64,000 nt of DNA from assembly GCA_037833965.1 (NCBI GenBank), contig AP031355.1, forward strand, positions 29,413,501 through 29,477,500, read 5' to 3'. Every line of letters begins with the position of its first letter. Position 1 is the first letter of the stretch. Positions 33,500 to 64,000 of the stretch are shown here, in pieces. A model generated the notes under the pieces. It was not told the DNA's origin. It did no database searches and was given only the letters and a program-made list of their open reading frames with translations. The stretch is from Marchantia polymorpha subsp. ruderalis. Taxonomy: Eukaryota; Streptophyta; Marchantiopsida; Marchantiales; Marchantiaceae. The translations under genes were made by a program, and so were the position numbers.

Positions 33500-35475
33500 T
33501 CTCTATTATCGAGTGAAAAACCGTAAAGCTAGGGTAGGTGTCTGGACATCGTTTTTGTTTGTTGCGATCAAGGAGACTGGTGAACATCTGTGTTATAGTG
33601 ATAATTCTTTTGTCTGCTGCAACAAATGTCTCACTGTATATCAATACTGATCAGCCAACGGAACCACCGCCATGTCCAAACACTCATGTCCGCCTGCAGA
33701 GATCAATCAAGTCATGACAGCTACAGCAACGCGCCGTGATGCGACTACAAGTGAGAAGAAACTCATCACCGTGGCGTTGGCGGACATGTGCGCTGTTGAC
33801 ATGCGTCCATTTTATATTGTGAAGGGCACAGGGTTCAGGAACTATACACAGACCGTCCTCAACATTGGGCTCAACTCTAAGGTGGGCATGCTTGTGGACA
33901 ATATTCTTCCTGATCCAACCACAATCACTAGAAATGTGCAGATGCGATCTAATGCTGGAAGGGAGATACTCACTGCCACCTTGAAGGTACATCTGGCGGA
34001 AGGAATTCAGATTGGCAGCACAACCGATATTTGAACCGATGACATCAACAAGGTATTTTTCCTATCAGTCACTGTGCATTTCATCGATGACGAGTTCACT
34101 CTACATCACCTCACGCTTGCATGCAGTCCATTTCCTTGGAAAGCACCACGGAGTCTTGGAAAAATATGAGGGTGTTTTACGAAAATTTGGCATCAATAGA
34201 TATGACCAGGTTACAGTTGTCACAGACCGAGGCTCAAATATGCACTCTACAGATGGCATTCCTAGTCTCTATGGTTGGATACCGTGTTGTGATCACATCA
34301 TTGGTACCATCATAACAACGATTATCGACAAGAGAACTCGAATGGTTGAAGGTAAAAAATCTGCTCCCTTCTATGAGTTTTACCATCTAGCCCTTGAGTT
34401 GTTTGATACTATTGATCAGGTCAAAGCTCTCGTGACATATGTCAAACAAGCGAATCTGCAGGATGAGATTGCAAAGACCCTCAAGCAGGAAAATGCGACA
34501 CGATGGAATTCTGCCCTCCGTTGCATGATCAGCGTTGACAAAGCACTCCCAGAGTTGACTGAGATATTACGTGCACGAGGTCGCGGATTGATTTCCAAGG
34601 TCAATAAGATTGATCATGAGCTTCTCAAGGAGTTCATTGCTTTTTTAGTGCCCTTTCAGGAGGCCATCCTAGCTCTGGAGATGTTTGCGGAGCCTATGAT
34701 ACACCATGTACTCTATTTTTGGCAGAATCTGCTAAAGCATTGCCAGGTTGTTGCGGCGGATATCACCACCAAGGAGAAAGATGGCACGATAACCACACTG
34801 AAGAAGGACTCTCCTGCATTCATTGCCTTGAAGCCAAAATTTGCGGAACTGATCAGGGAGAAGTTTATTTGGAGCGACATTCATGTCATTGCCGCCCTAC
34901 TCAATCCTAAAACCAAGTGTCGTCTAGACAAGTTTGGCATTGACTCTGTCGATATTGAACTTGGCCAAAAAAATCTAGAAAATATGATGAAAGATCATAT
35001 GATTGGCTCTAGCATCGGCAAAAGGAGTGTGCCATCTCATAAAAGAAAGAAAGAGGACAGTCGACGTGTTGTGCGTCGTCTTGCTGAGTACAGTTCTGAG
35101 AGCGACAGCACCATCGAAGAAAAGCCTCTTGCCGATGACGTGCAGCTTGATTTTTCTTTGAGAGCAGAACTCAACAACTATAATTGTCATAGGTGTAGTG
35201 ACGATGAAAGCACACTTCTATCTAAATATGGAGTTTTATTTTGGTGGAAGATCCATCAAAACAAATTTCCTATACTTTCTCGACTAGCTCGCTCTGTGTT
35301 AACCATTCCAGCTTCTAGCGCAAAATCTGAGAGTAACTTCTCGGACGCAGGGAATACCATGAGCAATAAACGCAACTTGTTGCATCCTTCCAAGCTCGAC
35401 GATCTCATGTTTCTATGCTCAATGCTAATGTCGTCTATTGTCCAGTTTAGAGTTCCACCTATCACCGAAAGCTAA
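33500..35475 (+). pseudogene. hAT transposase with BED zinc finger, broken by stops and a frameshift
   Basis: Domains in order: a BED finger (FVCCNKC...MSKHSC, about 33610-33690), a hAT N-terminal helical domain (KKLITVALADMCAVDMRPFYIV), the RNase H-like core (start STTDI, then VVTDRGSNM, CCDHI and ATRWNS) and the hATC dimerisation domain (FWWKIHQNKFPILSRLARSVLTIPASSAKSESNFSDAG). TGA stops lie after VYQY (about 33650) and after TTDI (34032-34034, where W is expected). A frameshift near 34130 separates the first catalytic region from the rest. From about 34130 to 35475 the frame is open for some 440 codons. The protein would act in the nucleus to excise and insert hAT elements, but this copy needs a helper. 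Confidence 0.88.
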
Positions 35476-35923: not shown

Positions 35924-37337
35924 TCCAAAACAAGCAAACTCTTGTATCACAAAAGTTGATGGAACGAGCGCTCAATTAGACTCTTTCAAACGCTTGACCT
36001 TCTTTGTCTTCTTGCTTGGCTTCCAGAGAATACTTGAACGTGAATGAGCACTTGTGACTCACTGGTACAATTTATTTCAACAACTTCTATACAAGACAAT
36101 ATAGAAGACTAAATTGTGTGCAGATTTACATTCAAAACTTTGCCCAAAAATGTACAAACAAGTAACATGTCCCAGGAAGACATGGAAGAGAGGATACCGA
36201 GACAACAATATAGGAAGTGAAGGATACTAGATGGCAAATATGAACTGGTAATTCCTATCTTGAAATCGAATGCAGCTCGAATGTGCACAAGAAATAAAGC
36301 TGCTAAAATATATCTGTTTGGGGTCCAACTTCAAAATCAGTGTCAACATTAACCTCTAACATGTCAAAGTTGTAATAAAAGGCTAAAACTGCAGTATAGC
36401 AGCAAAAAGGTCGAACCCACAGGGATAGAGGCAACACACAAAGTACAAAGTGTCACGTTTTAACAAACTATTGAAGAGTTTGAATTCTCAAGTGACTGTC
36501 ACTCCCAGAAATACTGCAAGTGCTCAACTCGGAGGTCACTCGGAGGACGCACAGTGTAGCGTAGTTCACCCCAACACACACTTGAAACTATAAACACAAC
36601 TCAGAGGTCAGTTAGGACCTCCACTTAAGATTCAGGGGGAAAGTTTCTCACGAGTACATTCAGAGGATCTGCAGGTAGTGCTCCCCAACTTCGGATTGTT
36701 AACTCTGAATGCTAGTGCAGAGCACCCGGTTTGGACTTCCTACTTTGGATGCGGTACCTTCGTCAAACCGAAGTCACTCACACGCGGTGAACAACACACT
36801 CGACTCACAAAACGCGCAGAGAATACGGGTGCCGAACTGAGAAACTCAACTGAGAAAAGATCGAGTGTCACACCATAATAGTCTATTGACGAGTTTGAAT
36901 TCTCAAGCATTAGTCATTCTTAGAAATACTGCGGAGGCTAGCTCCAAGGCGACTCAGGCAGCGTACAACCTGAATTGTTAACCAAGGTTTACTCGAAGTA
37001 ACAAAACTTCACTTTGGCATTCAGGGGGAAAAATCCCGAAGGAGTACAAACAGGAACAATCACCCAAAAGGTGTAAGTCCGAACTGCTCAAGTATCTAAC
37101 CAGTCTACACTAGCTCTGAGCATTCGGCCGAAGGCCTTCAGCTACAAAATGCGGTAACTTCGTCAAGCTGTAGCTCCTCTTGCGCGGTGACAGAAGTAAG
37201 GACACAAACGCGCAAAGAAGATGAGTTTCTGAACTGCACTTCCGAAACTGGAAAATCCCCAAGGCAAAACGCCTTGAACTACTTTATACCTTCTAAGTCC
37301 TAACTAACTAACACTCTACTCTACGCTACAATACATG

Positions 37338-38636
37338 TCATCTGCTATGCCTCATGTGCGAAGGCCAACCGCGCACTGCATCCCTACCAGACCAGTCTTC
37401 TGCTCTACTGCGCAATCCTAGCCGCCGCAACACCGCGGTCACCTCTGCCTCGAGGTTCGCAATGGCGTCCCGCGACCTCGCCAGGAAAGAATCTAACCGC
37501 TTCGCCACTCGCTGCCGGCTCCGACTGTCACCCGACATCAAGGCCGCCGCACGAATCTCTAACTCCCGTAAGGTGATTTTCTCCCGCGCTGCCACCTCCC
37601 AGAGAGTGTAACCTCTCAGACACTGGTTCACTTCCGCGATCAACTCCTCTCGCGTGCGATCTGTCGCGCGCCGGTTGTCGCCTTCAAACTGCACTAACTT
37701 CAGCTCCGCATCCGCACGCTACCCTCTCAATTCGTTGCACTGCGATTGCAGGCGACGCAGTAACTCTTCATCTGCCTTGCGTGCAATCTGACACTGCTCC
37801 AACAACCGCTTCTGCCGCACGAGCTCCTCTGCCAAGGTGCTATTCTGAATTCACTTCGAATGGAGCTCCGCCTCAATTGTTGCACGCTGCTTCTCAAATT
37901 CGCTCTAGGCCTTGGCTGCTGCGTCATCGCAAAGCTGTAGTATTGCCATCTGCAGTTTCCGCGAGAGTGTGAGATGTCCGTGCAGGGCATCGTTCTTCTC
38001 CCCCAACTCTCTGCACTGGCGGTCAAGGGAAATCAGTACGGGATTTGTCGCGACTTTGATTCGCGTCCGATTCCGCACCAATTCGACGTAAGATCTCCGA
38101 TGGCGGGGATTGGCATACTTCGCCGCCTTGCGATTGAGGTACCGTAATAGTGACACCACCTGCTCGCACAACACTCCTGTCGGCGTGCCTTGCACCGACT
38201 CCACTTCCTGCTCTTCCGAACCTGAGTCTTCGTTTTCTTCGTCCTCTGAGTCGAGGATCTCTGTCACCATAGAAATCCTCGGCGATTCCTTGGAACTAGG
38301 TCGCGTGGCTTCTGCTGCTGCGACCGCCGCTCCACTCCCGGCCAAGATCTCCAACGCGGTGGGAGATCTGGCTTCCGATGGGCCCGCTTCTCCTGCCCGA
38401 TCTGCTACTGACGGAGGCGCTTGTGCCGAAGGCACACGTGTATCCTCCTTCCGACCTTCGTCCTTGGCCAATTCCTCAAGTTGGGTCTGCGCCGAAGGCG
38501 CTTTCGCCGAAGGCGTTTGACCCGAAGTTCTCTGACCTAAAGGCTCCTCCCCACTCTTCTCCTGCGCCGAAGGCTCTTGACTCGAAGTCGAGTCGTCGAA
38601 CGTTACTTGCTCCGAGGCAAAGCACCTGTACTGCAA
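37338..38636 (-). pseudogene. gag-like coiled-coil ORF inside the 3.1 kb LTR-like segment
   Basis: One frame of 433 codons is interrupted by three stops (near 37905, 37853 and 37720) and no frameshift. The first 110 residues are low-complexity repeats based on PSAQ. Then come an acidic stretch (DSEDEENEDSGSEEQEVES), a conserved block PTGVLCEQVVSLLRYLNRKAAKYANPRHR, coiled coil, and a C-terminal block CLRGYTLWEVA...LREMEIRAAALMSGDSRSR-type. The same protein is encoded at 42510-43792 on the plus strand. Related proteins occur in moss retroelements as far as I recall. The role is unknown, perhaps capsid-like or accessory. Confidence 0.7.
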
Positions 38637-38934
38637 CCTCCGGGCTGACTCTCACTCAGTTTTACCTTTGATGGCTTTGCGGTAGCGCATCATGGTTTTA
38701 GAAGACTAGGATTCATCCTCACACTCATGTCCCAAACACTTTTCTCACAAACTCTCCATGTATCACTCCAACTCACACACAACCTCTCCTCACATCACTC
38801 TCTTCACATAAACGCAAACACACGTCGATACTCCAAAATACTCAAAAACTTCACTCCTTCATTCCTGAAACAAGTCCTCACACATGACTCTCCAAACTTG
38901 CTTGAGATGTGCTACTCTACCTCTCTATTTATAC

Positions 38935-38943
38935 TACTTGAGA
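38935..38943 (-). promoter_or_regulatory. TATA box in U3 of the LTR-like segment
   Basis: TATAAATAG on the minus strand lies 550 bp inside the segment from its TGTAA end and about 300 bp before the ATG of the coiled-coil ORF. Transcription from the LTR would thus include the ORF. Confidence 0.55.
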
Positions 38944-39514
38944 AGTTACCATAGTAACATGTGGTAATTTCTCCTAACTTACTTTTACCTAGGTAAGTTT
39001 GACTAACCCTCTCTATGTGGCAACATGCCATTGGTCTAGCTAAACCTTCTAGAAGTTTCCGAAATCCAAGGTTGAGGTGGCGACATGCCATTGGAAACTT
39101 TTAAACTTCTACAAGCTTCTTAGCCACTAATTCAACACTAGACTTAGTCTAGCCAATCATCTTTCATACATTTTAGTCTAACCAATCAAATCCAAGCTTT
39201 AAGTCAAAAATCTAATCCCTTGGAATCTAGAACTTTTGTATAAGACAAAATAGAAGTGCTCACTCATTGTAAAAAAAAAAATAGACGTGCTCACTCCACT
39301 CTTCTAGAACTCCTCTACTTAATCCTTCAACTATAGACATTGTAGCCAAACTTAGTCATGACTAGATAATTTTAGTTGTAACTAACTAGTTTAGTCATAA
39401 CTTGCTAGACTTAGCTATGCCTTGGCTAATCGTACTTAATCACTTGACCACTTCTAGGACTTAGTACATATGTGCAACACCCGGTCTTACATTTATCCCC
39501 GGACCAAGATTTCA

Positions 39515-39930
39515 CTACGCCCTTAGAGTGAAAGAATCTGATCTTCGATGGAATAACTTCAACTTGTCGTGGTTGACTCGATCGAAGTGACGTCCTCCTA
39601 ACTCCTTGATGTCATAAGTAAAATTTCCCCACACCTTCTCAACTATGAAAGGATCAAAGTACTTAGGAAGAAACTTTTTCCTTGCTCTCTTGTATCTAAT
39701 TGCGTCAAACAACATCACCCAATCACCTTCCTTTAACGGCTTTAAGTTGTGATTTCCACTTCGTTTGTCGTGATACTTCTTCTGCAACTGTTGAGCACAC
39801 TCCACTCGTACCAAGGCCAAAGCTCTATCTTCCTCCAACTCCATCAGCTATTGCTGGCGAGACTTGACAGCTTCCACTCCATTCGCTTTCTTCATCTTCT
39901 GTTGAATCGTTGTGAATGTTGTCAAGTCAA
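39515..39930 (-). pseudogene. Ty3/gypsy integrase C-terminal fragment
   Basis: The minus-strand ORF reads LELEEDRALALVRVECAQQLQKKYHD, GDWVMLFDAIRYKRARKKFLPKYFDPFIVEKVWGNFTYDIKELGG and RVNHDKLKLFHRR. This is the end of a gypsy integrase, including its SH3-like GDWV domain. A stop follows SRQQ upstream, and the sequence ends abruptly near 39930 where flanking DNA begins. Reverse transcriptase, RNase H and the integrase core are absent, so this is a 5'-truncated copy. Confidence 0.85.
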
Positions 39931-40213
39931 ACTGTTAGAAAAAACAAATTAAGAAAAAAGTTAGATGTGGAGGAGAAAATTTGGCACATACCTCACATAA
40001 AGCATACATCCACCAGATGAATCTGAACTGAAATGGCAAAAGGCAAAGTGATCCACGTGCAGTCTATGTACCACAAAATAACAATGATCTACGAGAGTTC
40101 AATCCAACTGAAATACTGACAATCAACACCAGATTAATACAAAAATATCTTTCATTACACAATGTCATATAAATAAAATCAACATCTCAAAATACAACTG
40201 AAACAAAACTTAC

Positions 40214-40312
40214 ATCATACTTGGTTGTCGCAAACGTTCTGTCCAACGCAAGAGGCTTATTTTGAGAGTAGTGAATTTTCATACCCAACTGCCATTTGGA
40301 TTGAAGAACCAA
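40214..40312 (-). pseudogene. MULE-like transposase exon piece (first catalytic Asp)
   Basis: The minus strand reads SKWQLGMKIHYSQNKPLALD and then RTFATTKYD. This corresponds to the MULE block before and around DSTFGTNKY, with the Asp of LDRTF as the first catalytic residue. It ends at a GT donor (40213). Upstream it abuts the 4.45 kb insertion, and the same frame continues at 44767-44840 on the far side. Confidence 0.75.
40308..40312. repeat. 5-bp target-site duplication, left (ACCAA)
   Basis: Repeated at 44767-44771, on the other side of the TG...CA unit. Five-base duplications are typical of LTR-element integration. Confidence 0.88.
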
Positions 40313-40732
40313 TGTGGTAACCCACTTTTTGTTTTTGGTCCGAAAAAAAATTTATTTGGAAAATAAGTACCGCGGCAATACTGTAAATAGTAATTGGTAC
40401 GTAAAATAGAGGAAAAAGGTAGAATCACGGGTCGCAGAGAATCTAGGAGTTGGAGGGGGTTTAGGCCGAGGTCGAGCGCCTTGGACGGAGCGGATTCCTG
40501 CTAAGGGGAGCGCCTTCGACGCCTTTGGCAAAAGCTCCTTTTGTGAGGTGTCTTCGGCTAAAAGGCCTTCGGCACAGACGCATGCAGAGGAGCTTTCGCT
40601 GAAAACGTACGAAGCATGCGACACATAGCGCCTTTGTCACAGGGAAAACGACCTCGTCACTTCAAACGCCTTCGGCACTAGCGCCTTCGTCGCTAGGTTT
40701 CGTCTTCGGCGGAAGTAATGCCTTCGCTTCTA

Positions 40733-40812
40733 GGATGCTCCTTCGGTGGAAGGATGCGCCTTCGGTGGAAGGATGCGCCTTCGGTGGAAGGATGCGCCTT
40801 CGGCGGAAGAAG
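40733..40812. repeat. minisatellite, 19-bp unit x4
   Basis: CTTCGGTGGAAGGATGCGC starts at 40741, 40760 and 40779, with a variant at 40798. The CCTTCGGC core also recurs throughout 40480-40920 and in the PSAQ-coding part of the nearby ORF. Confidence 0.88.
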
Positions 40813-41399
40813 AAAGGACAAAGGAAACGGTGGAAGTCCGTGCCTTCGCCGTGAGCGCCTTCGTCGCTAGTGCCTTCGGCGGTAGATGACTTCGGCGGTA
40901 CGCGAACGGAGAACGGCGTTGGCAGAAATCAGCGGGATGAAGATTGAATGTTCAAGTGTGGGAGTTCGCGCAACGACAGAGCGTGAATTCGCGCGTGCAA
41001 ATTGAGCCGTTAGGCCTCCGTGCCGGCATAGCATTCAAGCGGGCCGCGGCCAGCCCAAGTGTCGAACGATGAGCAATCTTGATCGCCGAAGGAAAGGACT
41101 CACTCTCACATTTTCAATTTTGCATTCGCTAGAGCTCGCGACGCGCAGCCGGAGAATCAGCGGAGAAAATTGCAACAGAGTGTGCGGGGAATTTGCCCAG
41201 AGTGCGCAGCAGCAGAGTGCGTTGCGGAAAAGTCCTTGCAGCAGTCTTGTGGAGAATTTGCGGAGAGCTCGCTGAAAGTTTGAGAGTGGGAGAGAATTGC
41301 AGAGAGAGATTACAGCGAGTTCGGCCGAGCTCCCGACGCACAGTAGTTGAGTTTGCAGAGAGTTGCAAGAAGTTTGCGGCAGCAGAGAGCACGAGTTTG

Positions 41400-43792
41400 C
41401 AGAGACTTTGCAAGAGTTCAATGACCAGGTCAACTCAGCTGCGGATGGTCCCGCTGAAAGTGCCGCAGATCGGACTGCGCGCATTTCAAGACGAGCTGCT
41501 GGCAGTAAAGCTCGACTTCCTCCTATGGGGATGGAACTGGGTGTGCTCGGAGATGGTCCGGGAGTGGCTGCGGAAGAAGAACCAACCTCTGCGTGGTTAT
41601 CGACCGCACCCGGAGAGGTGGCAAGTCAGTGATTGGGAGCGGATCTTGGGAAGGTGTGCGGGAGAGGAAGGCGACCTCGTATTCGAGTGTGAGAGTGTGC
41701 AGGTCACGAAGGAAGAAGAAATTTCCTTCGGTGCACTTTTCAAGAACTGCAAGTCGAGCAAGAACAGGTACAAGACCCGTGACTACAAGAATTGCAAGCG
41801 GAGGAATGTCGCGGTAGCACTCCTCCAGATTTTACAGCAGCACCACACCACCTACATGACATCTTGGCAGGTGGGGTTTGTGGAGCTGGCGTTGGCAGGA
41901 ACTCCGATTCATTGGGCTCGGATTCTGTGGAAGGCAATGGGACAACACGAGCAGCAGGAGAAGGGGGAATCGATCAATCACCTCTCCTCCTTCTTGATCA
42001 ATTTCTATCGGCCGATGGGGTGTTTGACAGCAACAGAGCGGGTACAATTTCCCTTGCTGTCACGAACAAATCCGGGCAGGTATGTGAAGGACGTCGAGGT
42101 TGATACCGACACCGACGACTTGGTCGAGCTGCCAGCAAACCACCAGCTCGACCAAGAATGGAAGACGAACCACGGAGGGAGCGGGTACCGCGGAAGCGGA
42201 AGTGGAATGGAGAAGCGGACCAGAGCCAGCGGGAAGTGCCTGCTGCTCCAGTCAGACGTCGGGCGAACCACGAACCCGCAAGTCAACCGAAGGAGAAGAC
42301 ACGCAAGCTTGTTTTGCCGGCGAGCATCGCGGACATAGGACGAGCCGCGGAGACGAGAAACTCACCATCCTCGGAGGAGGATGTGAGTGCAGGAGTTCTT
42401 GGGACGTTAGCTGATCTCCCTGCAACGAAGGCACGAACGTCTTCAGAGGAAGCGCGTAGGCCTTCGGGCCAAGGAAGATGGCATGCGGCACACGCCAACA
42501 TGCTAGCGACGGAGAAGTGCTTGGCTTCCGAGCAAGTACCCTTCGATGACTCAACTTCAGGTCAAGAGCCTTCGGCGCAGGAGCAGAGTAGGGAGGAGCC
42601 TTCGGCTCAACGGACTTCGGGTCAAGCGCCTTCGGCGCAGACGCAACTTGAGCAATCTACGGCGGACGAAGGCAGAAAGGAGGAGACACGCGTGCCTTCG
42701 ATGCAGGAGCCTTTGGCACAAGCGCCTTCGGCGGTAGCAGTCCGGGCAGTTGAAGCAGGCCCACCGAGAGCAAGTTCTCCCACCCCGTTGGAGCTGTTGG
42801 CAGGACATGGAGCGGAGGTCGCGGCAGAAGAAGTTGCGTGACTCAGCTCAAGAGAATCACCGAGGATTTTTGTGGCGACATAATTCCTCGAGACCGAAGA
42901 TGACACGGGATCGGAGGAAGAGGAAGTGGATTCGGTGCGAGGTACACCGACCGGAGTGCTCTTCGAGCAGGTGGTACCACTACTACGGTACCTTGATCGC
43001 AAGGCGACTAGGTACGCGGATCCCCGCCATCGAGGATCCTACGTTGAGTTGGTTAAGAATCGGACTCGGATTAAGGTAGCAACGAATTCCGAGCTAATAG
43101 CCTTGAACCGGAAGTACCGGCAGCTAGAGGAGCGGTACGACTTCCTGCAGGAGCAGTTTACCCTGTCACGCAGACTGCAGAAGAAAGCGCTGGAGCTGCG
43201 AGATTCTATGGTAGCCGACGCCCAGAGCAAATTTGAAGCACAGCGTGCGAAGATCTGGGCGGAGCTCAATTCCGAGCGAGCTCAAAATTGCATCTTGGCA
43301 GAGGAGCTCGTGCGGCAGACGCGGTTGCTGGAGCAGAGTGAACTCGCACGAAAGGCGGACGAGGAGTTACTGCCTCGATTGCAATCGCAGTGTGAAGAAT
43401 TGAGAGCGAAGCGTGCGGAGGCGGAGTTAAAGTTGATAGAATTTGAAGACCACAATCGGCGCCCGACAGATCGCACGCGAGAGGAGTTAGTAGCGCGAGT
43501 TGACCAGTGCCTTAGAGGTTATACTCGCTGGGAGATTGCAACGCGGAAGAGAGTGACCTTGCGCGAGATGGAGATTCGTGCGGCGGCTTTGATGTCGGGT
43601 GACAGTCAGAGTCGGCGGCGCGTGGCGAAGCGGTTGGAGTCATTCCCCTCGAGGTCGTGGGACGCCATTGCGAAACTCGGGGCAGAGGTGACCCAGGTGT
43701 TGCGGCGGCTCGGACTGCGCAGGAGAGCAAACGATTGGACGGGTAGGAAGTTAGTGCGTAGTCGGCCTTCGCACAAGAGGCATAGCAGATGA
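41400..43792 (+). pseudogene. gag-like gene inside the 4.45 kb unit, frameshifted
   Basis: Three collinear segments in two or three frames form one decayed gene. The first is about 41430-42130 (REWLRKKNQPLRGYRPHPER, DWERILGRCAGEEGDLVFE, VAVALLQILQQHHTTYMT, LALAGTPIHWARILWKAM, TNPGRYVKDVEVDTDTDD). The second is 42158-42841, with PSAQ repeats. The third is 42926-43792, with coiled coil and CLRGYTRWEIATRKRVTLRE. A frameshift lies near 42130 and stops lie at 42839-42885. The first segment looks like the helical core of a retrotransposon gag from mosses. The last segment is the homologue of 38636-37338. There is no zinc knuckle and no protease. Confidence 0.7.
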
Positions 43793-43849
43793 AGCGTAGA
43801 GTAGAGTGTTAGGTAGTTAGGATTGTAGAGTGTATAAAGTAGTTCAAGG

Positions 43850-44690
43850 CATTGGCTTTGGGATTTTCCAGTTTTGGAAGTTCAGTTCAAGAACTCGTTT
43901 TCTCTGCGCGTTTGTATCCTTCGTTCTGTCACCGCGCAAGAGGAGCTACAGCTTGTCAAAGTTACCGCATTTTGTAGCTGAAGGCCTTCGGCCGAATGTT
44001 TTGAGTTAGCAGATAGTCTAGTCAGGATCTTCAAATTCGGACTTACACCTTCGGACGATTTTCCCTGTTTGTATTCCTTCGGGATTTTTCCACCTAAATG
44101 CCAAAGTGAAGTTTTGTTAACTTCGGAGTAAGCCTTGGTTGAAATTCAGATTGTGTGTGTTACGCTGCTTGAGGCGCCTTAGGGGTAGCCTCTGCAGTAT
44201 TTCTGGAAATGACTAGTGCATGAGAATTCAAACTCGTCAATAGACTGTTAAGTTGTGACACTGAATCTTTTCTCAACTCAGTTTCTCAGTTCGGATTTCT
44301 GTATTCTCTGCGCGTTTTGTGAATTGAGTGTGTTGTTCACCGCGTGAGAGTGACTTCGGTTTGACGACGGTACCGCATCCGAAGTAGGCAGTTCAACCCG
44401 GATGCCGTGCACTAGCAGTAACTAGTGGAAGGGTTGTAAATTCGGAGTTGGGGTGACTACCTACAGATCCTTTGAGCATACTCTTGAGAAACTTTACCCT
44501 TGAACCTTAAGTGGAGATCCTAACCGACCTATGAGTTGTGCTTTTATAGTTTCAGGTGTGTATTGGGGTGAACTACGCTGCACTTTGCGTCCTCTGAGTG
44601 ACCTCCGAGTTGAGCACTAGCAATATTTCAGGGAGTGACAGTAGTTTGAGAATTCAAACTCCTCAATAGGCTGTTAAAACGTGACATTTA
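43850..44690. repeat. two diverged ~415 bp tandem units at the 3' end of the TG...CA unit
   Basis: TTCTCTGCGCGTTTTG/TGTATC, CACCGCG, TACCGCAT and GAGAATTCAAACTC(G/C)TCAATAG(A/G)CTGTTAA occur in the same order near 43900-44250 and 44300-44690. The inverted relative at 36371-37330 has the same double structure, so the duplication predates both insertions. Confidence 0.75.
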
Positions 44691-44766
44691 GTACTTTGGG
44701 TGTTGCATCTGTCCTTGTGGGTTCGACCTTTTGCTGCTATACTGCAGTTTTAGCCTTTGGTGGGTT

Positions 44767-44771
44767 ATTAC
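44767..44771. repeat. 5-bp target-site duplication, right (ACCAA)
   Basis: Direct copy of 40308-40312, closing the TG...CA unit. Confidence 0.88.
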
Positions 44772-45930
44772 AACCAACATGAAATCTTGGGACGGATTTG
44801 CAGATATATACTGTTGATGTAGAAGCACAAAATGCGGATGCGCATTAATTCAAATCTGCACTAACTGTTGGTCGTTTTCATGAAACATATAAGGTTCCCT
44901 TGCCACCTTTGCTTTTATGTTGTGCAAATCTTTCAAATGAATAGTGTCATCCTTAGCTCCTCTTATGGACCATGAAAGAGCTGCACGATCATTAAAAGGA
45001 CAGTCTGGACCTCCTGTTTTAAATGCATGTCAAAAACTTGTGGAATTGTCCAACCCCATCTGAAAAGTTGCTCTATGTTTTGTCTGAGCTCGTTCGTAAT
45101 TCGTGGAGCATATGCACACTTTGGACTCCAAGGAACAACTTCATTTTCTGCATTTCTTCCGAGACACCTGTTTCCTTTATCATTACAATGAAACTTGCAA
45201 CACAAATGAAAACATCGAGTTAATATTAATTCATATTTATGAAATAACATCATCACCATGATAACGTATACATCAACAAGTTCAGACGGTAAAAACATGT
45301 AAACAAAATACTCTTACCTTTGTTTGTAATATATGACTGCAGTCTCAAGTTCTGATTTGTAATATGTAACAACAAAGTTACAAAGACATACTCTCTTCAA
45401 TCGATCATTGAAGTTAATATATCTTGATTGTGATCTACTATTGTCACATAATCCGAGAGGTGGATAGATGCCTTTTCTGGGTATTGTGTCTGAAATTCAA
45501 GAAGGATGGTTGAATGGTCCAAAAGCACTTTAATAAGTTATTGTTTTTATCCAAGCAGTTTTTGGGCCTGGTCTATCATTGGTTCGTCTTTTCCAAAGGC
45601 TTGTTTCAAATTCTATATTTCTTCTGCCTTCACCATCCACAAAATTATCTACCCTTTCACTTGGAATACGAGCTAACTCCACAAGAGAATGATGCATTTC
45701 CCAAGCCCATTGCAAATCATCTGCATAGAATGTTCTTGTAGGAGGTGATTGAACAGGAATTCTACTGTCCATTGTGACACAAGTGTTCCTTTTTTGTCAA
45801 GGAAAAACAACCAGGATCTAATTCTGTTTGGATAAATGTGGCCAAGTAAATTGTCTCTGCAGACGATAGACACATCTTCTTCCCTTCAGCTGCTAGCTGC
45901 CTCAAGGTATATCCATGTCTAAACCTAACA
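44767..45930 (-). pseudogene. MULE-like transposase gene, N-terminal exons
   Basis: Minus-strand blocks read LRQLAAEGKKMCLSSAETIY (about 45890), then 45772-45530, then 45298-44963. The last contains WSPKCAYAPRITNELRQNIE and WGWTIPQVFDMHLKQEVQ, followed in a shifted frame by DLHNIKAKVARE. This matches the DNA-binding/N-terminal half of FAR1/MULE-like transposases. Near 44840-44772 the frame (HPHFVLLHQQYISANPSQDF) runs straight into the piece at 40312 once the TG...CA unit and one ACCAA are ignored. Frameshifts make it a pseudogene. Confidence 0.65.
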
Positions 45931-48900
45931 TGAACTACCTCTTAAACAGAAAAATCACAATCAGCATATTCATCAGCCTAAACCCTTATCATATCCTTGA
46001 TTTAACACCTCGCGAGCACCCCCAAAAATGCTCCCAGCTATCTAGATAGTGTCATAAGTCCACCATGATAGTAGCCCTAAGGCAGGCAGGCAGCCAAGCA
46101 TCAAAGAAATGATGAGAGAAAGAGTAGAATCAAGGCTCATTTATTATTTTTCACTTCAGAGCTTCACTTGCCAATTATGGTGATTTCCACATAGCTTCTC
46201 TTTTGTGTTGGAGAGATGCAACCATTAACCTCATTGCTCTAGTGACACTTTTCTACAGGAGCAAGCAAATCGTAAAAAACAGAGAAAATGTAAGAACAAT
46301 TGCAAAGCCTTGTTATAATTATGAAATGGTACTTGAAGTCTTTTGAGGACAATTTCTTCAGAGAGATACATACACTGTACAAATTTCACACATAAAGTCT
46401 CATAGGAGAATTGAAAATCTGAGGGCATTGATTGAAGCACAAGGATCAGCTTCACGAGGCATCAGTTTCTCTCCCTTTCCCTTCTTTATCATTATCTCAA
46501 CCAGATAAAAAAGACCACGTGTTTCAGGCAGCGTAGCTCTATATTCTCCGTCACTAATAGGTGCCTGCAGACAGTTCCCAAGTCCAAGGATTTTCACATT
46601 CAGAAGCAACTAGTAAGAACCTCAACAGCAAGGAATGAAAGAGCAAGCAACATTTCACACAGCCAGATATGTCAGAACACAATGTAATAGTTCGTTCAGT
46701 CTTACTTCTGCATCTCCCTACCTAATATCTAAGGTTCTCTCCATCCATGACTATGTTTACATGTGAGATGTTAAATCCGTTCATTAAGTAGAAGATAGCT
46801 ACATCTACTGTCTAAAATGGATTAAATCCTATCTCAGAATCTCTGAACACAATGTCTTAGTTTGTTCAGTCTTACTTTTGCATCTCCCTACCTAGTATCT
46901 AAGGTTCTCTCTATCCATGACCATGTCTACATGTGAGATGCTAAATCCGTCCATTAAGTAGAAGATAGCTACATCTATTGTCTAGAATTGATGCAATCCT
47001 ATCTCAGAATCTATGAACACAATGTCTTAGTTTGTTCAGTGTTACTTCTACATCTCACTACCTAGTATCTAAGGTTCTCCCCATCCATGACTATGTTTAC
47101 ATGTGAGATGCTAAATCCGTCCATTAAATTAGTACTCTATACCCTTTCTTCAAAAACTTGGACTAGATGACAGATACCCATTCCTTGACTGAAAAGTCGG
47201 TGTTTTTAGTTCATCTTGGATTTGAAAATGTGAACATGTGTATCAACAAAGTTTTTTAACAATTTGGCTTTATCAACAGCGTCATAGCTGCCAACCCACG
47301 TAGTGGTGGTATAAAACGTAGTAGTCTCTTAATTGATTAATCCTAAAGAGAATGGGAATTCAAAAAGAATGCATAGTAAGGAGGAAAGAATTTTCTATTT
47401 GTACTCCATAGTACAAATAGCTCATTGTACAGTTAAATAGCTAGCTGATGAAATGTGCAGACGATAGATAGCTCCTAGCTGCGTCGAGGTATATCCAAAG
47501 AAAAGAAATTGAAGTACTTTGAACTTCATCGATAGTTTGAAACTGAAATAGATATTGATAGTTTAACACTTAATCAGGCCATTCATGTGAGATGCATTCT
47601 AATCTGAAGAACTGCGACTTGGATGTGTCAGGAAATCCACACTACAAACTGAGAAATGCGCAAACAAGTTAAGAGTCAGAACTTCAACGTCGGCTCTCTC
47701 TAAACTTTCCACAAGCAATAAAAGCTGGAAAACGGAAACCTGGAGACTGAGGTATCACCAATCCTAAACCTTGAGATCCCGACCATATGTTGGCTCAATT
47801 TATCATCATGAGTGTCTTTTGTGAAACCTGCACGGGGTCGATGATCATTACCTACTTCGACTTCATTCCCATGACATCGAGCTACATCGAGACATTCTTG
47901 AACAGCTCTTTTTTCCTAGACACCTTACTACAACATTGAATCTTATCAAATTATTTTGATGATAATTTTAAAATTTTTGTAATTATTCATTTTCACAAAA
48001 ATTTTAATATAATCAACACTAAAGTTTTATCATTATATATCATATAAAATAAAGTAATCATTTTGAAGTAATAATATCCAAATCAAAATAACAAGATGTA
48101 AGCTTTATATATCGCAACAAAAAAAAATTTGTACATTTTATTTGTATTATCCATAAATTTTTTTCAAATGAATTCATCCAAATTGTAAACATCATTTTGA
48201 AGATAAAATGTATAGTATTGTGGTATTGTTAATCCTTATAAAGATTAATCAAATCAATGTGTAAATTTGTGGCATAATATTCAATAAATTCTTGTTTTGA
48301 TGATGCAAAGTAAAAAAAAATAGAACAAGTTTTCAAGAATTAGATGATGAATTTATCATCTTTTGTAATGAAAATAGGGTAATACATGAGATTGTGCATA
48401 GTAAAAAATCTGATTTACAATTTCACCGATTCCTTGAATGATCACTTATTCAAACACCAAAATACACACAAATCAACTTAAAGATGTAATAAGTATCACT
48501 ATTTCATTGCAATTTTTAGATCTATAGAGATATAGTTTTTAGTTTTCACAAAAAAGAATTTATTTGACCCTAGATGGTTCAATTTACTAAGATGCTATCA
48601 AGTTTTTGTTTTCTGTCTTTGTAACCTTCAAGCAATAGGTTTCAACTACTATACAAAAACGTAACTACCTAGCTTGTTGTAATGAAAAAAGTAGAGAAGT
48701 ATGTGAGATAATGTTAATAAAAACAAAACATGTGTCTTCAATAATCAAATTATGAACATGTGTAGTCTAAGATATTTTATATGGTATAAATTATTCTACA
48801 AAAGTTTTTGACACATTTTATATGTTTTTAAAATATATAAAGTTTGTTGTTGCTACAATGATTTTTGTGCTAAGAGTCATAAGAAATGTTTGAGGATTTG

Positions 48901-50697
48901 CAATGGCAAGATTCTCATTGATTGGAAGTCTTGGGGATAAAACTTTCAAGATTAGGTTGTAACTTCATATAAATCTAAGTATCCAATGACTCTCATTGTT
49001 GTATACTTGGTCTTTTTAGTTGACTTGTGATTATATTGCATCAGTCTTGTGATCACATCCACATAGAAATTTTGTTTGGTCAAAGATATAGGCCTAGATT
49101 GAGCATTGAAAAACACATGAAAACACACAATTCACATATTTCAATAGATTTTTTAAAGTTTATTCCAAATCTAGGTTTCTTTCATGATCTAGAATTGTAT
49201 GATCTACAATTATTTTAATAAATGTCTGGCTAATGACGTTTCACTGTACTTTTATTCTATTGATTTTATTTGTAATATACACACCAATATGAAGTTTCGT
49301 TTTGTTGGGATTTTGCCTTACCATATTGACTCTAGTTAAATTAAAGGTTGATTTTAATATGTGAATACTATATTGTTTCTCAAACCATCTTATTTACATA
49401 TCCACTTTACGAGCTTAACACTCAGTTTAGCAGTAGCCTCTATTCATATTTCCAAGTCCAAGTTTTATTACACCATTTTGGATACTTGTCTTATATTAAA
49501 TTCAGTCATACTTAAATTTTGAGATACTTATAGGATTGATTTATAAAAAATTTCTGTAATTAAAACTTTGAATAAAAGTATAAGTTATAAAATTTAGAAT
49601 GTTTCTAAAACATACTTTTACATGTTGATTTTATGACATCAGTTTTGAAAGTCATTACTTCCAAGCAAATAAGAATTTTTTTATAATTTTTTCGAAATTA
49701 ATATATGCACTCTATTATATATGACGGTAATATCTTAAGATAAGGCTTCTTATTGAAGTCAAAATAAATTTGAATATATATGTGTATAGGTTTCCATATC
49801 TGTGTATGGTCACAAATTACGATCAGATACAACATTTAGCTGTACAATGATGAATTTTCATTTTTAACAATACAAATCATTCATAGAAAATTTTAAATAC
49901 AACCGAGTTCTGAGAAAAAAATTAGATTTTTTCAATAATAAATTTATGTAGATAACTTCAAAAGATAAAATTCATTATTTTAAAAAATTCAAATGAAAAT
50001 TCAGAACCCAAAGTATTTTTTTTCTCACAACAGTACAATGCTAAAGTGGACACCAAATTACTATTATCTCAAAATCATAGGATTATATATAATTATATGT
50101 TACTTTCAGAATTGTCAGTTATATCTTCAACGTTAAACCTTCATCAATATGAACTTTAAGATTGATGCAGTACTAGATATAAAAAAACTATTATCCCAAA
50201 ATATAGAATTATCATCTAAATTTCCTTTCAATTTTAATATTATATATAAAAAGTGATTGCACAAAAAGACATTTCTATCAGATAGAGATTACATTTAAGT
50301 CAGATAATATAATGTCAGAAGAAGTGATCGTTCAAAATAAAATGATGAATTTTCTTGTAAATTGTACAAAATTTGAAATTGTTACTTCATTTTGAACGCA
50401 AATATTAATATTTTTCAGTATTTCCTCTTAATTCTATTCCTACTTATTTTTCTTGATATTAAATGACGTAAAAAAAAAGAGAAAATTGCAGAAATATTTT
50501 CTGATATGATCGAGTTATATATGTACATTTATATTGAGTCATTGTCAAAGTGAAATTTATGAATTAAGTCGAACTTCACTTTGTCTGAATAATGATCTAT
50601 AGAGATAGATATTATGAGGGATTGTCCTGTCATGGTAGTGTTGAATGCTTACACTCTTTACTCTATAATTATAAACGAAGTAAACAGGAAGTAACAA
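45931..50697. other. repeat-rich, AT-rich stretch without recognised genes
   Basis: A minus-strand ORF at 46609-46400 follows a possible acceptor but has no recognisable domain. A 170-bp tandem array lies at 46675-47135. From about 47.93 kb the sequence is the left copy of the segmental duplication and is AT-rich with no coding signal. Confidence 0.4.
46675..47135. repeat. tandem repeat, 170 bp unit x2.7
   Basis: Units begin with GAACACAATGT at 46675, 46845 and 47015. Each contains CATCTC(C/A)CTACCTA and CATCCATGAC(T/C)ATGT, and identity is about 93 percent by eye. Confidence 0.9.
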
Positions 50698-51440
50698 CTG
50701 TGAGCCTTCCTAACTGTCTCTCTCAATTGAGATGGAGATGAATGTTCGTTTCAAGCGACGTGTGTGTTTGGATGTGATGGACACGCTGGACAGATTGCTT
50801 CGCCTTGCAAACCAATTTGTCCACCACCCCCAGCATCTCAGTTTCATTATAGACTATTATAACTACATCCCTCCACCACACAATAGCACACATGACATAT
50901 ACCAGAAAATGTGTTGCTGTTACACAAAGTATCTTTACATCCAGATCGTAATGTAGCATCTTTGCAAGTCAAAGCAACCCGTCCAGCGTGTCCATCACAT
51001 CCAAACACACACGTCGCTTGAAACAAACATTCATCTCTATCTCTATTGAGAGAGAGCTAGGAAGGCTCACAATGGTCACTTACTGTGCCCCTTCAATTCT
51101 ATCTCCTCCATGAGGGGATTTTATGTTTCTTGTAGATTCCTACATCAAGCATGAAACCAAATGTCACTTTAGTTTATTGCTGATCTGAAATATAGATCAA
51201 ATCTTAAACATGTTTGAAATAACAAACTCAAAGGCATTATCTACCAAACTAAAATCTCACTAACACGGGAGATTGAACATTCTCTGTCACGGTTCTTGCT
51301 TTTTGGAGGGGAATTGCAGCTGCATATGACCGTCTATCTTCCATCAATGTTCTGCCTTCCATGTGATCTTCCAGTCGACTTAGTCCACATTGAAGTAGGA
51401 AGAAGCACCATGTGAGTGGCCGGGCTTAATATTACAGGTA
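47930..51440. repeat. segmental duplication, left copy
   Basis: Collinear with 59990-64000 in the same orientation at an offset of roughly 12 kb. Matching blocks include ATTATTTTGATGA (47950/60023), TGTAGTCTAAGATATTTTAT (48760/60832), GATATAGGCCTAGA (49084/61156) and the gene end at 51280-51440 / 63818-64000. Identity looks like 80-88 percent with many small indels. Confidence 0.88.
50698..51072. repeat. inverted duplication, ~113-nt arms, 147-nt loop
   Basis: Arms 50698-50812 and 50960-51072 are reverse complements at about 85-90 percent. Each includes the coding-like block MNVRFKRRVCLDVMDTLD (plus strand on the left, minus strand on the right). The right copy of the segmental duplication has only one arm (62935-63040), so the left arm was added after duplication. 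Confidence 0.85.
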
Positions 51441-59230: not shown

Positions 59231-62200
59231 ATATTTTGCATGAGAACCATAAGTAGAGTTTATTAGAAATTTTTCATTTTTCTATATATATATATATATA
59301 TATCTCTTATGATGTTTTAATTACAACTCAATTCAAGGTAGCTATAGGTTAAAAATGGCTCTATATTGGATTTTTTCTAGAATTTCTTGTGGAATAATCA
59401 CATAGAACATGGAATTTATTATCTTTACAACATGAAAGATTCATTCTGTAGACATAATAAACTTTCTTTGTTAGATCTAGATTGATTGTAGGTAGTTCAT
59501 TAATGTCTATTTCAACTTAAAATAGTTTGAAAGGTTAGATTTAATTTAAATTATTATAAGGAAGTCTAACAAAAGCTCTTGATCAATACTTTAGTATTTT
59601 AACCAATAAAACTTTTACAGATTCTTCTGGTCCGCAAAAATAGATGATATATTTTAGTGTCAATGTTTTGATGTGTGTCATCTTGTTTTATTGTTTTTGT
59701 ATTTTAGTGATTCATATAATAAATCTAATGGCTAAATCAGTTTTTCAAAACCTATCGATGTAGAAGTCAAATTGAATGAATTTATCTTCTTCAATAAATT
59801 ATAATTATTGAATGTGTTGATTACAATAAACTTGATCAATTTTACAAATAATAAATAATTGTCTTTGAATCACAAATAAACAAAGTGAAATTTTAACATG
59901 TAAATATTATTTTATATTATCTACAAGTTTCTGTCAAACTTCTTCATTCTTTTCAAAACGGAATTTTAATTGCAACTTCTGAATAAAAAAATCGAATAAT
60001 TGTGAAAAAATTCAATTTTATCATATTATTTTGATGACATTTTTACAATTTTTTTTAACTATCACATCTCACAACAAATTCAATGTCATTAACACTTAAT
60101 TATTATTATTATCTATATTATGCAATAAAATGCTCATTTTGAAGTTAAAAAAATCCACATCAAAATTACATAGCTAAACCTTTATATATCTCAAAAAACT
60201 ATTTGTACATTATATTTGTATTCTCCTTTATTTTATTTTTTATGAATCCATGCAAAATGTGTATATCACTTTGAAGATAAAACTATACCATACTATGGTA
60301 ACATTAATCATTATAGATTTTAATTGTATCAAAGCGTAATTTTGTGGCATAATATTCAATAAATTTTGATGATACAACGTAAAACAACGAAATTTGGAAC
60401 AAGATCTCAAGAATTGGATGCTGATTCTTATTAACTTTTGAAACGAAAATAGGGAAATATATGATATCGTGCATAATAAAAAATCTGATTTATAATTTCA
60501 GTGATTTATTGAATGATCACTTATTCAAACACCGAAATACACACAAATCAACTTTAATATGTATTAGATTTAACTATTTAATCGCATTTAATCTATAGCG
60601 ATATATTATTTAGTTCACTAAAGTTGAAATTTATCTTATCCTAGATGGTTCATTTTACTAAGATCCTATCAAGTTTTTGTACTCTGTCTTTGTAACCTTC
60701 AAGCAATAGGTTTCAACTACTATACACAAACTTAACTACTAGCATATTCTAATGAATAAAGTAAAAAACGGATGTGACATTATGTTAATAAAAACACAAC
60801 ATGTGTTTTCAACAATCAAATCATGAACATGTGTAGTCTAAGATATTTTATAAGGTACATATTATTCTACAAATTTTTATGACACATTTTATATGTTTTC
60901 AAAATGTAAAATTTTTGTTGCTGCTACAATGACTTTTGTGCTAAGAGTCATAAGAAATGTTTGAGTATTTGCAATTGCAAGATTTCATTGATTGCAAGTC
61001 TTGGGGATAAATATTTCAAGATTAGGTTGAAACTTCATATAAATCTAAGCATTCCTTGGCTCTCATCCTTGCATACTTGGTCTGTTAAGTTGATTTGTGA
61101 TCATGCTGCATCAGATGTGTGATCACATCCACATAAAGAATTTGTTTAGTCAAAGATATAGGCCTAGAGTGAGCATTGAACAACACATGGAAACACACCA
61201 TTCACATATATTGAAGATTTATTTTTTTAAAATTCCAAATCTAGGTGACTTTCATGATGTACATTCCTTAAATAAATGTCTTGATTTTATTTCTTGATTT
61301 CTTTATTTATTTCTTGATAATTTCTTGATTTTATTTGTAACATACACACGAATATCTAGTTTGGTTTTGTTGGATCTCTGCCTTATCATATTGACTCTAG
61401 TTAGATTAAAGGTTGATTTTAATATATGAATACTATATTGATCCTCGATCATGATCCTCGTAATTGCATATCCACATCATGAGCTTAACTCTCACATCAA
61501 GTTTAGCAGTAGACTCTATTCATATTTCCAAGTCCAAGGTTTATTACACCAATATAGATACTTGTCTTAGAATAAATTCACTCATACTTAAATTTTGAGA
61601 TACTTTTAGCATTGATTTTATAAGAAATTTTTGTAATTAAAAATTTGAAAAAATTTAAGTTATAAAATGTAGAGTTTTTCTAGAAAGACTTTTACATGTT
61701 TTTTTACTACATCAGTTTTAGTATTCTTTACTTCCAACGTAATAAAAATATTTTTTGAATTTTTTGAAATTTAATTTATGCACTTTAATTATAAACGAAA
61801 GTAATATCTTAAGATAAGGCTTCTTATTGAAGTCAAAATAAATTTTATTTTCTTGGTGAAAATATTTTAATATCTTTTTATGGTCACAAATTACAATTAA
61901 ATACAACAATTTAGCTTTAAAATGATTAAATTTTATTTTAAATGATACAAATAATTCATTGATATTTTGAAATACAACCGAGTTGTGGCAAAAAAATTTT
62001 AAAAATTTAAAGAATATATTTATGTAAATAAATTCATTAAGTAAAAGGACCAAAGTTCATTTTTCGAGACATTGGAATAAAAATTCAGAACTCCTTAAGG
62101 AAAAAAGAAATTTCTCGCAACAGTACTATGCTAGAGTTGATACAAAAATACTTTTCTCAAAATCATAGTTATAATTTATTTTACTTTTGGAATTATCAGT

Positions 62201-62840
62201 TATATCTTCAACGTAAAAAATTCATCAATGTGAACTTTAAGATTGATGCAATAGTTGATGTAAAAACTTATTATACAAAATTATAGAATTATTATCTGAA
62301 TTTCCTTACAACTTTACTAATATATATATATATAATGTGATTGCACCAAAAAACAGAAATGGATAGAAATGGATAGAAATGGAGCACATATAAGATGAAA
62401 ATACAAATTGCATACGCTTCAAAAATTCTGTCAGAAGAAGTGATCATTAAAAATAAAATGATGAATTTGCCTGTAGATTGTACAAACTTTGAAATTGTTA
62501 CTTCATTTTGAATGCAAATTTCACATTGACAATGACTCAATATAAATATACAAATATAACTTGAGCATTTCAGAAAAAAAAGTCTGCAATTCTATCAAAT
62601 TATTTTTAACGTCATTTAATATCAAGAAAAATAAGTAAAAATGGATTTTAAGAAGAAATTACTGAAAATATTATTCATGAATACACTTTATCTGAATAAT
62701 GATCTACAGAGATAGATTGTATGAGGGATTAGTTCTGTCATGGTAGTGTTGAATGTTTACACTCTTTCCTCTGTAACTATAAACCAAGTACACATTTTCC
62801 CCCAGCATCTCAGTTCCATTCTAGACTAATATCACCACAT
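59231..62840. other. AT-rich noncoding, mostly right copy of the segmental duplication
   Basis: Contains (AT)n at 59283-59304 and 62320-62334. From 59990 it parallels 47930 onward. No gene signal is visible. Confidence 0.5.
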
Positions 62841-64000
62841 ACCTCCACTACCACACAGTAGCACAAATGACATAAACTGAAAAATGTGTTGCTGTTACAC
62901 AAAGTGTCTTGACATCCAGAGCATAATGTAGCAGCTTTGCAAGGCAAAGCAATCCCTCGAGGGTGTCCAGCACATCCATACACACACGTCGCTTGAAACG
63001 GACATTCATTTCCATCGTCATTTTGGGATAGTTAGGAAGGATCACCGTTGTCACTTGCTGTGTTCCTTCAATGCTATCTCTTCCATGAGGAGATTTTATG
63101 TTTCTTGTACATTCATACATCAAACATGAAACCAAAATGTCACTTTAGCTGATTGCTAACCTGAAATATAGACCAAATCTAAAACATGTTTAAAATAACA
63201 GATTCAAAGGCATTATCTACCAAACTAAAATCTCACTATTTACCTTCAATTTGGTGATCTCCAAACTTCTGTCTCGTTGTCACCACTCATCATCATGATA
63301 TCAGGAAACTTATGATCCCATATATTGTATGGTTGATGTATCGGCTGATTTTCGTAGGTTGAAAACGATTTCAAGTTCCCTTGAAGCACTGGTGTTCTTG
63401 GCTCCTCCATGAAGTTACCTATGACATGAGGATCAGAACTTTGTGTAAAGGTGCCCCTGGACGCGCTTCCATTGTGTATACATGCATTGTTGTTTTCTGA
63501 GAAGAGGGAGTAAAAATTCTCAGTATGACCACTTGGCGTTCCGTTGCTGCTCCTAGAGGATCCTACAGATCCCAGGTCCTCTAATCCCCCTCGCATTCCA
63601 TTCTGGCTTGGGAACATTGATGTTTGTCCAATAGTTCCAATTTGACCCAAGGAACTTGATGCTTTCAAAGCATTATTCTCTGAGTTCCCAATCCTTTTGT
63701 TCTCAGCAAGTTGCTGAAAAGAGTCTGCAAAATTCAAATCTTGAGAAGAGACTGCATATCTGTCATATGCATTCATGGCTCTTCGGAGAGGAGCCATAGT
63801 TGTCGTCATGGAAGAAACCACGGGAGATTGAACATTCTCTGTCACGATTCTTGCTTTCCCGCGGGAAATTGCAGCTGCATATGACCGCCCATCTTCCATC
63901 AATGTTCTGCCTTCCATCTGATGGCGCCCAGTCGATCTCGTCCACATTGAGGCAGGAAGAAGCACCATGTGAGTGGCCGGGCCTAATCCTACAGGTACAA
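59990..64000. repeat. segmental duplication, right copy (continues past the edge)
   Basis: Same orientation and order as 47930-51440. It retains the exon body 63246-63818 that is missing from the left copy and lacks the extra inverted arm found at 50698-50812. Confidence 0.88.
63246..64000 (-). CDS. CCCH/RRM/OST-HTH gene paralogue, C-terminal exon (5' part beyond right edge)
   Basis: The frame is open from the right edge (VPVGLGPATHMVLLPASMW) to a TGA at 63246, about 250 codons. The sequence is low-complexity and rich in Ser, Asn, Gly and Gln (SFQQLAENKRIGNSENNALK, GSVGSSRSSNGTPSGHTENF), typical of the disordered tail of plant CCCH/RRM RNA-binding proteins. Its first 50 residues match the damaged gene ending near 51280. 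A GT donor follows the TGA immediately (GAAG|GTAAAT), so an alternative splice could skip the stop into an exon near 63030-62940 (EMNVRFKRRVCMDVLDTLEG). That block is also conserved in the left copy. Domain content is inferred from the paralogue because the 5' exons lie outside the window. Confidence 0.6.
   Translation of the reverse strand, partial: VPVGLGPATHMVLLPASMWTRSTGRHQMEGRTLMEDGRSYAAAISRGKARIVTENVQSPVVSSMTTTMAPLRRAMNAYDRYAVSSQDLNFADSFQQLAENKRIGNSENNALKASSSLGQIGTIGQTSMFPSQNGMRGGLEDLGSVGSSRSSNGTPSGHTENFYSLFSENNNACIHNGSASRGTFTQSSDPHVIGNFMEEPRTPVLQGNLKSFSTYENQPIHQPYNIWDHKFPDIMMMSGDNETEVWRSPN

Follow-up and report, generated by a model that had tools for sequence, protein, structure and literature searches.

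We identified a solo long terminal repeat (LTR) of a Ty3/gypsy retrotransposon that carries a protein-coding gene of about 790 codons. It lies in a 64,000-nucleotide stretch of Marchantia polymorpha DNA (the window, whose numbering is used throughout), and we searched for its relatives in the genome (241 Mb, nine contigs). On balance, we consider it likely that this is a solo copy of a roughly 4.4-kb LTR whose gene of about 790 codons most likely lies in U3 and likely encodes an accessory protein acting in trans. The unit, which occupies the right-hand part of the region of interest, and its components are as follows.

40308..40312, no strand: left target-site duplication, ACCAA (sequence flanking the right-hand unit)
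40313..44772, + strand: solo LTR, Ty3/gypsy, 4,460 bp (ends TGTGGTAACCCAC...GTGGGTTATTACA; empty-site test; primer-binding site/gag and polypurine tract adjoining elsewhere)
40402..40408, + strand: TAAAATA, a weak candidate for the LTR gene's promoter (8 of 17 copies exact, which does not exceed background)
41421..43792, + strand: LTR gene, broken in the window copy, where one stop and a frame change precede the C part (codon-position signal; ORFs)
41421..42116, + strand: N-domain of the LTR protein, 232 aa, no relatives found (Pfam, PDB, and genome protein searches)
42104..42838, + strand: Pro/Ser/Gln-rich linker, in another frame in the window copy, with PRKRKW at 42188 (ORFs)
42884..43789, + strand: LTR protein, C part, predicted as a long helix (ORFs, codon signal, structure prediction)
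43793..44772, + strand: non-coding tail that is presumably R/U5 and includes a diverged internal duplication (self-comparison; codon-position control)
43833..43838, + strand: TATAAA, 41 nt past the stop codon of the gene; candidate genomic-RNA promoter (29 of 38 copies exact)
44773..44777, no strand: right target-site duplication, ACCAA (sequence flanking the right-hand unit)

The original prediction had bounded this unit by TGTGG...TTACA with ACCAA on both sides, which we confirmed; its right end, placed at 44766, is actually at 44772. We joined the two flanks with a single ACCAA and found uninterrupted matches elsewhere in 28 of 33 listed matches, as judged by reading (two more of those listed are the halves from the window itself); the best match has 95% identity across 200 of 200 bases. 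Such unbroken matches show that the unit went in as a single, clean insertion. Ten copies with pairable ends were examined for TG...CA ends and a 5-bp target duplication, which is exact in six (the window, L014, L033, L037, L041, and L051) and has one mismatch in the other four (L021, L050, the inner copy of L052, and L053). The tail contains a duplication of its own, 44194-44271 versus 44620-44697 (74% over 78 bp), and further repeats are apparently present there in some copies elsewhere.

The gene-bearing unit is the LTR of a Ty3/gypsy retrotransposon, as its surroundings at other loci demonstrate. Three copies (L020, L027, and L040) have in common the right flank after the LTR end, which consists of 21 nt and then a TGGCGCC-like site. 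This primer-binding site is the complement of tRNA-Asp plus CCA at 19 of 19 bases in L027, with two differences each in L020 and L040. A search for the tRNA-like pattern returned 29 genomic places, all reading GGTTCGATCCCCGGCAGCGGCG, against 0 for the control, and both of the tRNA 3'-end places that we checked are tRNA-Asp(gtc) genes. Downstream of the primer-binding site lies gag (PF03732, E=1.2e-14 in the L020 copy). Another locus, L055, encodes a zinc knuckle, protease, reverse transcriptase (RT), RNase H, and the H2C2 zinc-binding domain of integrase, in gypsy order; a further integrase stretch with the C part (L055:3693-4265) had no match in a Pfam search. The gag-pol reading frames are broken in the elements that we read. 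At the other end of L055, the polypurine tract GAAGAGGGGAGCA is followed directly by TGTGGTAACCC, the start of the gene-bearing LTR, and in L059 a polypurine tract likewise stands directly 5' of the 3' LTR.

Two genome searches extended these observations. A query composed of the LTR end and the internal start crossed the LTR/primer-binding site/internal junction at 33 of 40 scored places, a count that includes the query's own place and some in repeated segments of contig C1, and that is favored by a query itself spanning the border; one of the seven non-crossing places is the 3' LTR of the C1 element described below, where the match stops at the LTR end. With a query of integrase plus LTR start, 31 of 40 places bear integrase, every one extending 57 bp or more into the LTR, and the remaining nine are LTR only. 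For 28 of the 31 integrase matches (at 75-77%), the LTR sequence in common is just 57-144 bp, so the LTRs of those families may differ farther in. We also considered an independent one-gene DNA transposon, with 13-bp inverted ends and 5-bp duplications, that came to adjoin gag-pol by chance nesting. The inverted repeat ends (11 of 13) and the many copies that stand alone agree with such a unit; the primer-binding site at a fixed 21 nt, the polypurine tract directly before the other end, and the 33 of 40 junction matches do not, and we rejected it on these three points. A Pfam search of the unit's ORFs for a transposase also found no match, and we regard a DNA transposon as very improbable.

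One element, on contig G000:C1 (5.6 Mb; hereafter C1) at 588-605 kb, could be read at both ends. It is damaged, and parts of the gene are present in both of its LTRs. The 3' LTR has N-domain residues 1-209 (81% identical to the window, with one stop), the linker, and the gene's end; it is without most of the C part and is interrupted by another LTR. In the 5' LTR, the initial 187 bp and N-domain residues 1-88 are missing, and what is left comprises the N-domain from residue 89, the linker, the C part, and the tail. The two damaged LTRs are 88-91% identical to each other. Among the loci compared, the element's own 5' LTR is the nearest relative of its 3' LTR in three of three segments (88.8-91.2%), by a margin of just 1.1-1.4 points over the next-nearest relatives. 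A genome search likewise found the remainder of this 3' LTR at 91%, the highest among the matches listed besides the query. Several matches on C1 recur in three or four near-identical places (e.g., at approximately 2.45, 2.85, and 3.20 Mb) spaced about 0.34-0.41 Mb apart, which is either a large amplified segment or an assembly effect.

A second element, on C8, has the polypurine tract and LTR start at one end (L059). At L060 it has N-domain sequence (73% identical over 107 residues) about 3.0 kb before the LTR end, versus 2.65 kb in the window. The gene is absent from its 3' LTR piece, which spans just about the first 1.2 kb of the LTR. No element among those read has two intact LTRs. The original prediction held that the gene lies inside the LTR itself, and this is borne out by the primer-binding site and gag after the unit, the polypurine tract before it, and the gene parts in both LTRs of the C1 element. 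It had further suggested looking for full-length elements with two such LTRs and a primer-binding site directly after TTACA: gene parts do occur in both LTRs of the sole element read at both ends, which is damaged, and the primer-binding site lies 21 nt after the LTR end in L020, L027, and L040.

The left-hand part of the region, at 36371-39493, had been taken as one LTR with the gene in its R/U5. Our comparisons divide it, together with the adjoining sequence, into three features.

36371..38625, - strand: second copy of the gene-bearing LTR, 5'-truncated, from LTR position 2205 on (self-comparison)
38627..39493, - strand: LTR of an unrelated gypsy element, 867 bp, adjoining the left copy (genome search, L049)
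39494..39935, - strand: purine tract and integrase end of the unrelated gypsy element, truncated (self-comparison, L049)

The two segments do share the same ORF and tail, as had been noted: 36378-38625 (-) aligns in inverted orientation with 42517-44758 (+) at 79.9% over 2,288 aligned bases. The left segment is nonetheless not one LTR; it is the unrelated 867-bp gypsy LTR next to a copy without its first 2.2 kb. L049 is a complete unrelated gypsy element with the same pol end and with two LTRs 100% identical over 859 bp, and its comparison with the gene unit gave no match. This complete element has LTRs of 0.86 kb and lacks the gene; hence the left-hand TATA box, purine tract, and integrase end belong to the unrelated element. 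The sequence 38627-39493 (-) recurs at 93-96% in 39 of 40 other matches listed (the last is at 72%), which include four same-strand pairs about 7 kb apart, one of them the LTR pair of L049; these matches start at query position 123-133, about the end of the unrelated LTR, and do not enter the gene copy.

A gene in R/U5 of the left gypsy element's 3' LTR, as first proposed, would agree with the gene copy and the gypsy LTR abutting at 38626/38627, where the one starts and the other ends. We rejected this model because the complete relative has 0.86-kb LTRs without the gene; the other copies of the gypsy LTR stop at about this junction, and the TATA near 38943 that was assigned to the gene sits in the unrelated LTR. 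The model retains practically no probability. Similarly, an exchange of U3 had been proposed from the differing starts of the two segments, and it is not needed, the "different U3" being another element. The observation that had been named as counting against a gene in the LTR, namely full elements whose short LTRs leave out the ORF, was made just for this unrelated gypsy LTR. Next to the left copy, 33985-35475 (+) contains a 496-aa frame with a Dimer_Tnp_hAT match (E=3.2e-19), a hAT transposon fragment. Elsewhere in the window, we noted a long diverged AT-rich direct repeat (47932-51262 and 60007-63238; 81% over 2.4 kb plus further pieces) and a 170-bp unit in three tandem copies (46664-47178).

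The gene runs from an ATG at 41421 to a stop at 43790, wholly within the LTR at 40313-44772, and the ATG is preserved in 12 of 12 aligned copies and the stop in 28 of 30. We compared 31 aligned copies, one of them the window's left copy, with the window copy; L026, which occupies the same locus as L041, was excluded, as were loci lacking a long match. For the conservation counts there were 41 copies, after omission of L042 and L048, which duplicate the loci L052 and L053. In the N region, substitutions at codon positions 1/2/3 were 0.114/0.075/0.176, and the ratio of nonsynonymous to synonymous changes was 0.37 of the expectation from a context-dependent spectrum. The same measure was 0.44-0.45 in the C part and 0.64-0.70 in the linker, with non-coding controls at 1.00-1.07 (left part of the LTR) and 0.78-1.14 (tail). 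The 288 bp upstream of the ATG lack codon periodicity (0.157/0.176/0.166), which is present after it (0.129/0.084/0.195). Judged by these substitution patterns, which show it, the LTR gene is under purifying selection that starts at the ATG. We give no p-value because all copies were compared with the window copy and are hence not independent. We also searched the genome with the protein and scored the best 150 of 8,075 first-look candidates (a figure that is not a copy count); all were strong. By our count, 39 of these 150 matches, the window included, are stop-free within the match, and open frames reach 673 aa, while every copy checked lacks a single intact frame of about 790 codons. Because most copies decay without constraint, the codon signal reflects the lineages that moved.

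The protein has three parts. The N-domain of the window matched no Pfam family, with one chance match (E=0.12) among 11 members scanned, and no PDB entry up to E=1; its predicted structure has a mean pLDDT of 33.5. The linker includes PRKRKW in 8 of 14 copies, a motif that we take to resemble a nuclear signal. The C part matched only KIP1 in Pfam (E=0.097, under the family cut-off), and is predicted to form a 146-residue helix with pLDDT block means of 72-97 (single sequence, best of five models). The ORF had been described as gag-like and coiled-coil. The first description does not apply, as the true gag sits in the internal region. The second is matched by the long predicted helix, without clear support from two crude heptad tests (period 3.5, p = 0.68; window score reached by 30 of 500 shuffles). 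Our best guess is that the product is a trans-acting accessory protein, with a role in, for example, nuclear regulation or anti-silencing.

The LTR that interrupts the 3' LTR of the C1 element belongs to another family. It is 3.53 kb long (TGTGGTGCCTAC...CATTACA), is flanked by GATGT on both sides, and carries a homologous gene with the same order of parts: the N-domain is 41% identical over 217 aligned residues and the C part is related (40% over 63 and 23% over 127). This copy has four stops in its N-domain. The family has many copies at 85-92% (40 scored); tandem pieces on C4 aside, no two of those scored lie at element distance. Because so diverged an LTR carries a homologue, the arrangement of a gene in the LTR is old. 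We also found a gene-less LTR of the same family as the window's, 1,426 bp long (L021:1488-2913, -), nested inside a gene-bearing LTR between its parts. It retains the LTR's initial 106 bp and the whole of the sequence from shortly upstream of the TATA box onward. Its left portion, which lacks the gene, occurs three more times in the genome (on C6, C5, and C3), and a search found no pair at element distance among 40 scored places. Because such variants exist, the gene is not needed in cis. The gene-less LTRs, together with the broken state of most gene copies, might instead point to a passenger gene, carried in U3 by chance or to its own advantage and of no use to the element. We consider this quite unlikely: the codon signal and the presence, in a second LTR family, of a homologue whose parts are ordered alike argue for long-lasting selection through a lineage that moved.

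The TATA box after the stop suggests, weakly, that the gene would lie in U3 rather than R/U5; the support is weak because 23% of tail 6-mers are conserved as well as TATAAA at 43833. If instead transcription started near the left end of the LTR, the gene would be in R, as a leader and the first ORF of the genomic RNA before gag. The first part of the LTR is indeed common to related families (57-144 bp), has the TAAAATA at 40402, and is kept in the gene-less LTR (first 106 bp). This placement would make R longer than 3 kb, the TAAAATA is exact in just 8 of 17 copies, and the TATAAA right after the gene is also kept in the gene-less LTR. We therefore hold a gene in R to be possible, though unlikely.

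Elements that retain their interior begin with the gene-bearing LTR and, after 21 nt, the tRNA-Asp primer-binding site; gag, protease, RT, RNase H, and integrase follow in that order, and the polypurine tract leads into the second gene-bearing LTR. Returning to a gene in U3, we infer the U3/R border, the promoters, and the gene's expression and function as follows. The genomic RNA would start at the TATA box just past the gene's stop, so the gene would be absent from the 5' end of that RNA and present once, in the 3' U3; each reverse transcription would then copy the U3 gene into both LTRs. The gene's own transcript would use a promoter in the first 1.1 kb of the LTR and terminate in the tail, and the N-domain, flexible linker, and long helix would form an accessory protein working in trans. 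We propose only tentatively that the U3 gene has its own promoter and terminator and that solo LTRs, as candidate standing single-gene units, supply the protein in trans. If so, each insertion would yield two gene copies, and the formation of a solo LTR would spread the helper gene instead of ending the element's part.

LTRs are normally regulatory, and an accessory gene carried in an LTR is known from retroviruses such as mouse mammary tumor virus (MMTV), whose sag reportedly lies in U3. A gene so placed sits at both ends of the full element and persists when a single LTR remains. Solo LTRs in the Marchantia genome can thus be gene copies, beyond being scars, and LTR-borne ORFs would easily be listed as host gene families. 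Our search of the literature on such ORFs and on liverwort LTRs, which left subscription papers mostly uncovered, found no plant protein gene inside an LTR; this is compatible with known cases and does not show that none is known.

According to the accessible part of the source, the MMTV LTR is about 1.3 kb because its 3' LTR encodes Sag, and the two cases are alike in that an unusually long LTR houses a protein gene (PMC3026287). The host, protein, and element class differ, the Marchantia LTR is 4.4 kb, and its protein is without a Pfam match; Pfam and PDB searches gave no match that would indicate homology to the superantigen. The gypsy-type elements Retrosat2, RIRE3, and RIRE8 of rice resemble the Marchantia family in having long LTRs (over 3 kb) and an extra ORF, ORF0, before gag-pol; in the portion of the source available, ORF0 is described as upstream of the gag-pol ORF and is not placed within the LTR, so that this description sets it apart (PMC3485330). 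Athila, Grande, Retand, and others likewise have conserved extra genes, some of them nuclear; as far as the accessible text goes, these belong to the internal region and mostly follow pol, ahead of the 3' LTR, whereas here the gene is inside the LTR (PMC7264820). Cassandra, Helenus, and Ajax, which are TRIMs, do have gene-derived sequence in the LTR, but are described in the available part of the source as short and non-autonomous, with 5S- or tRNA-derived sequence and no protein (PMC10886601). The LTRs of one Marchantia family, which contain a large gene under selection, and those of a diverged second family, which contain its homologue, show another and enduring means of carrying an accessory gene.
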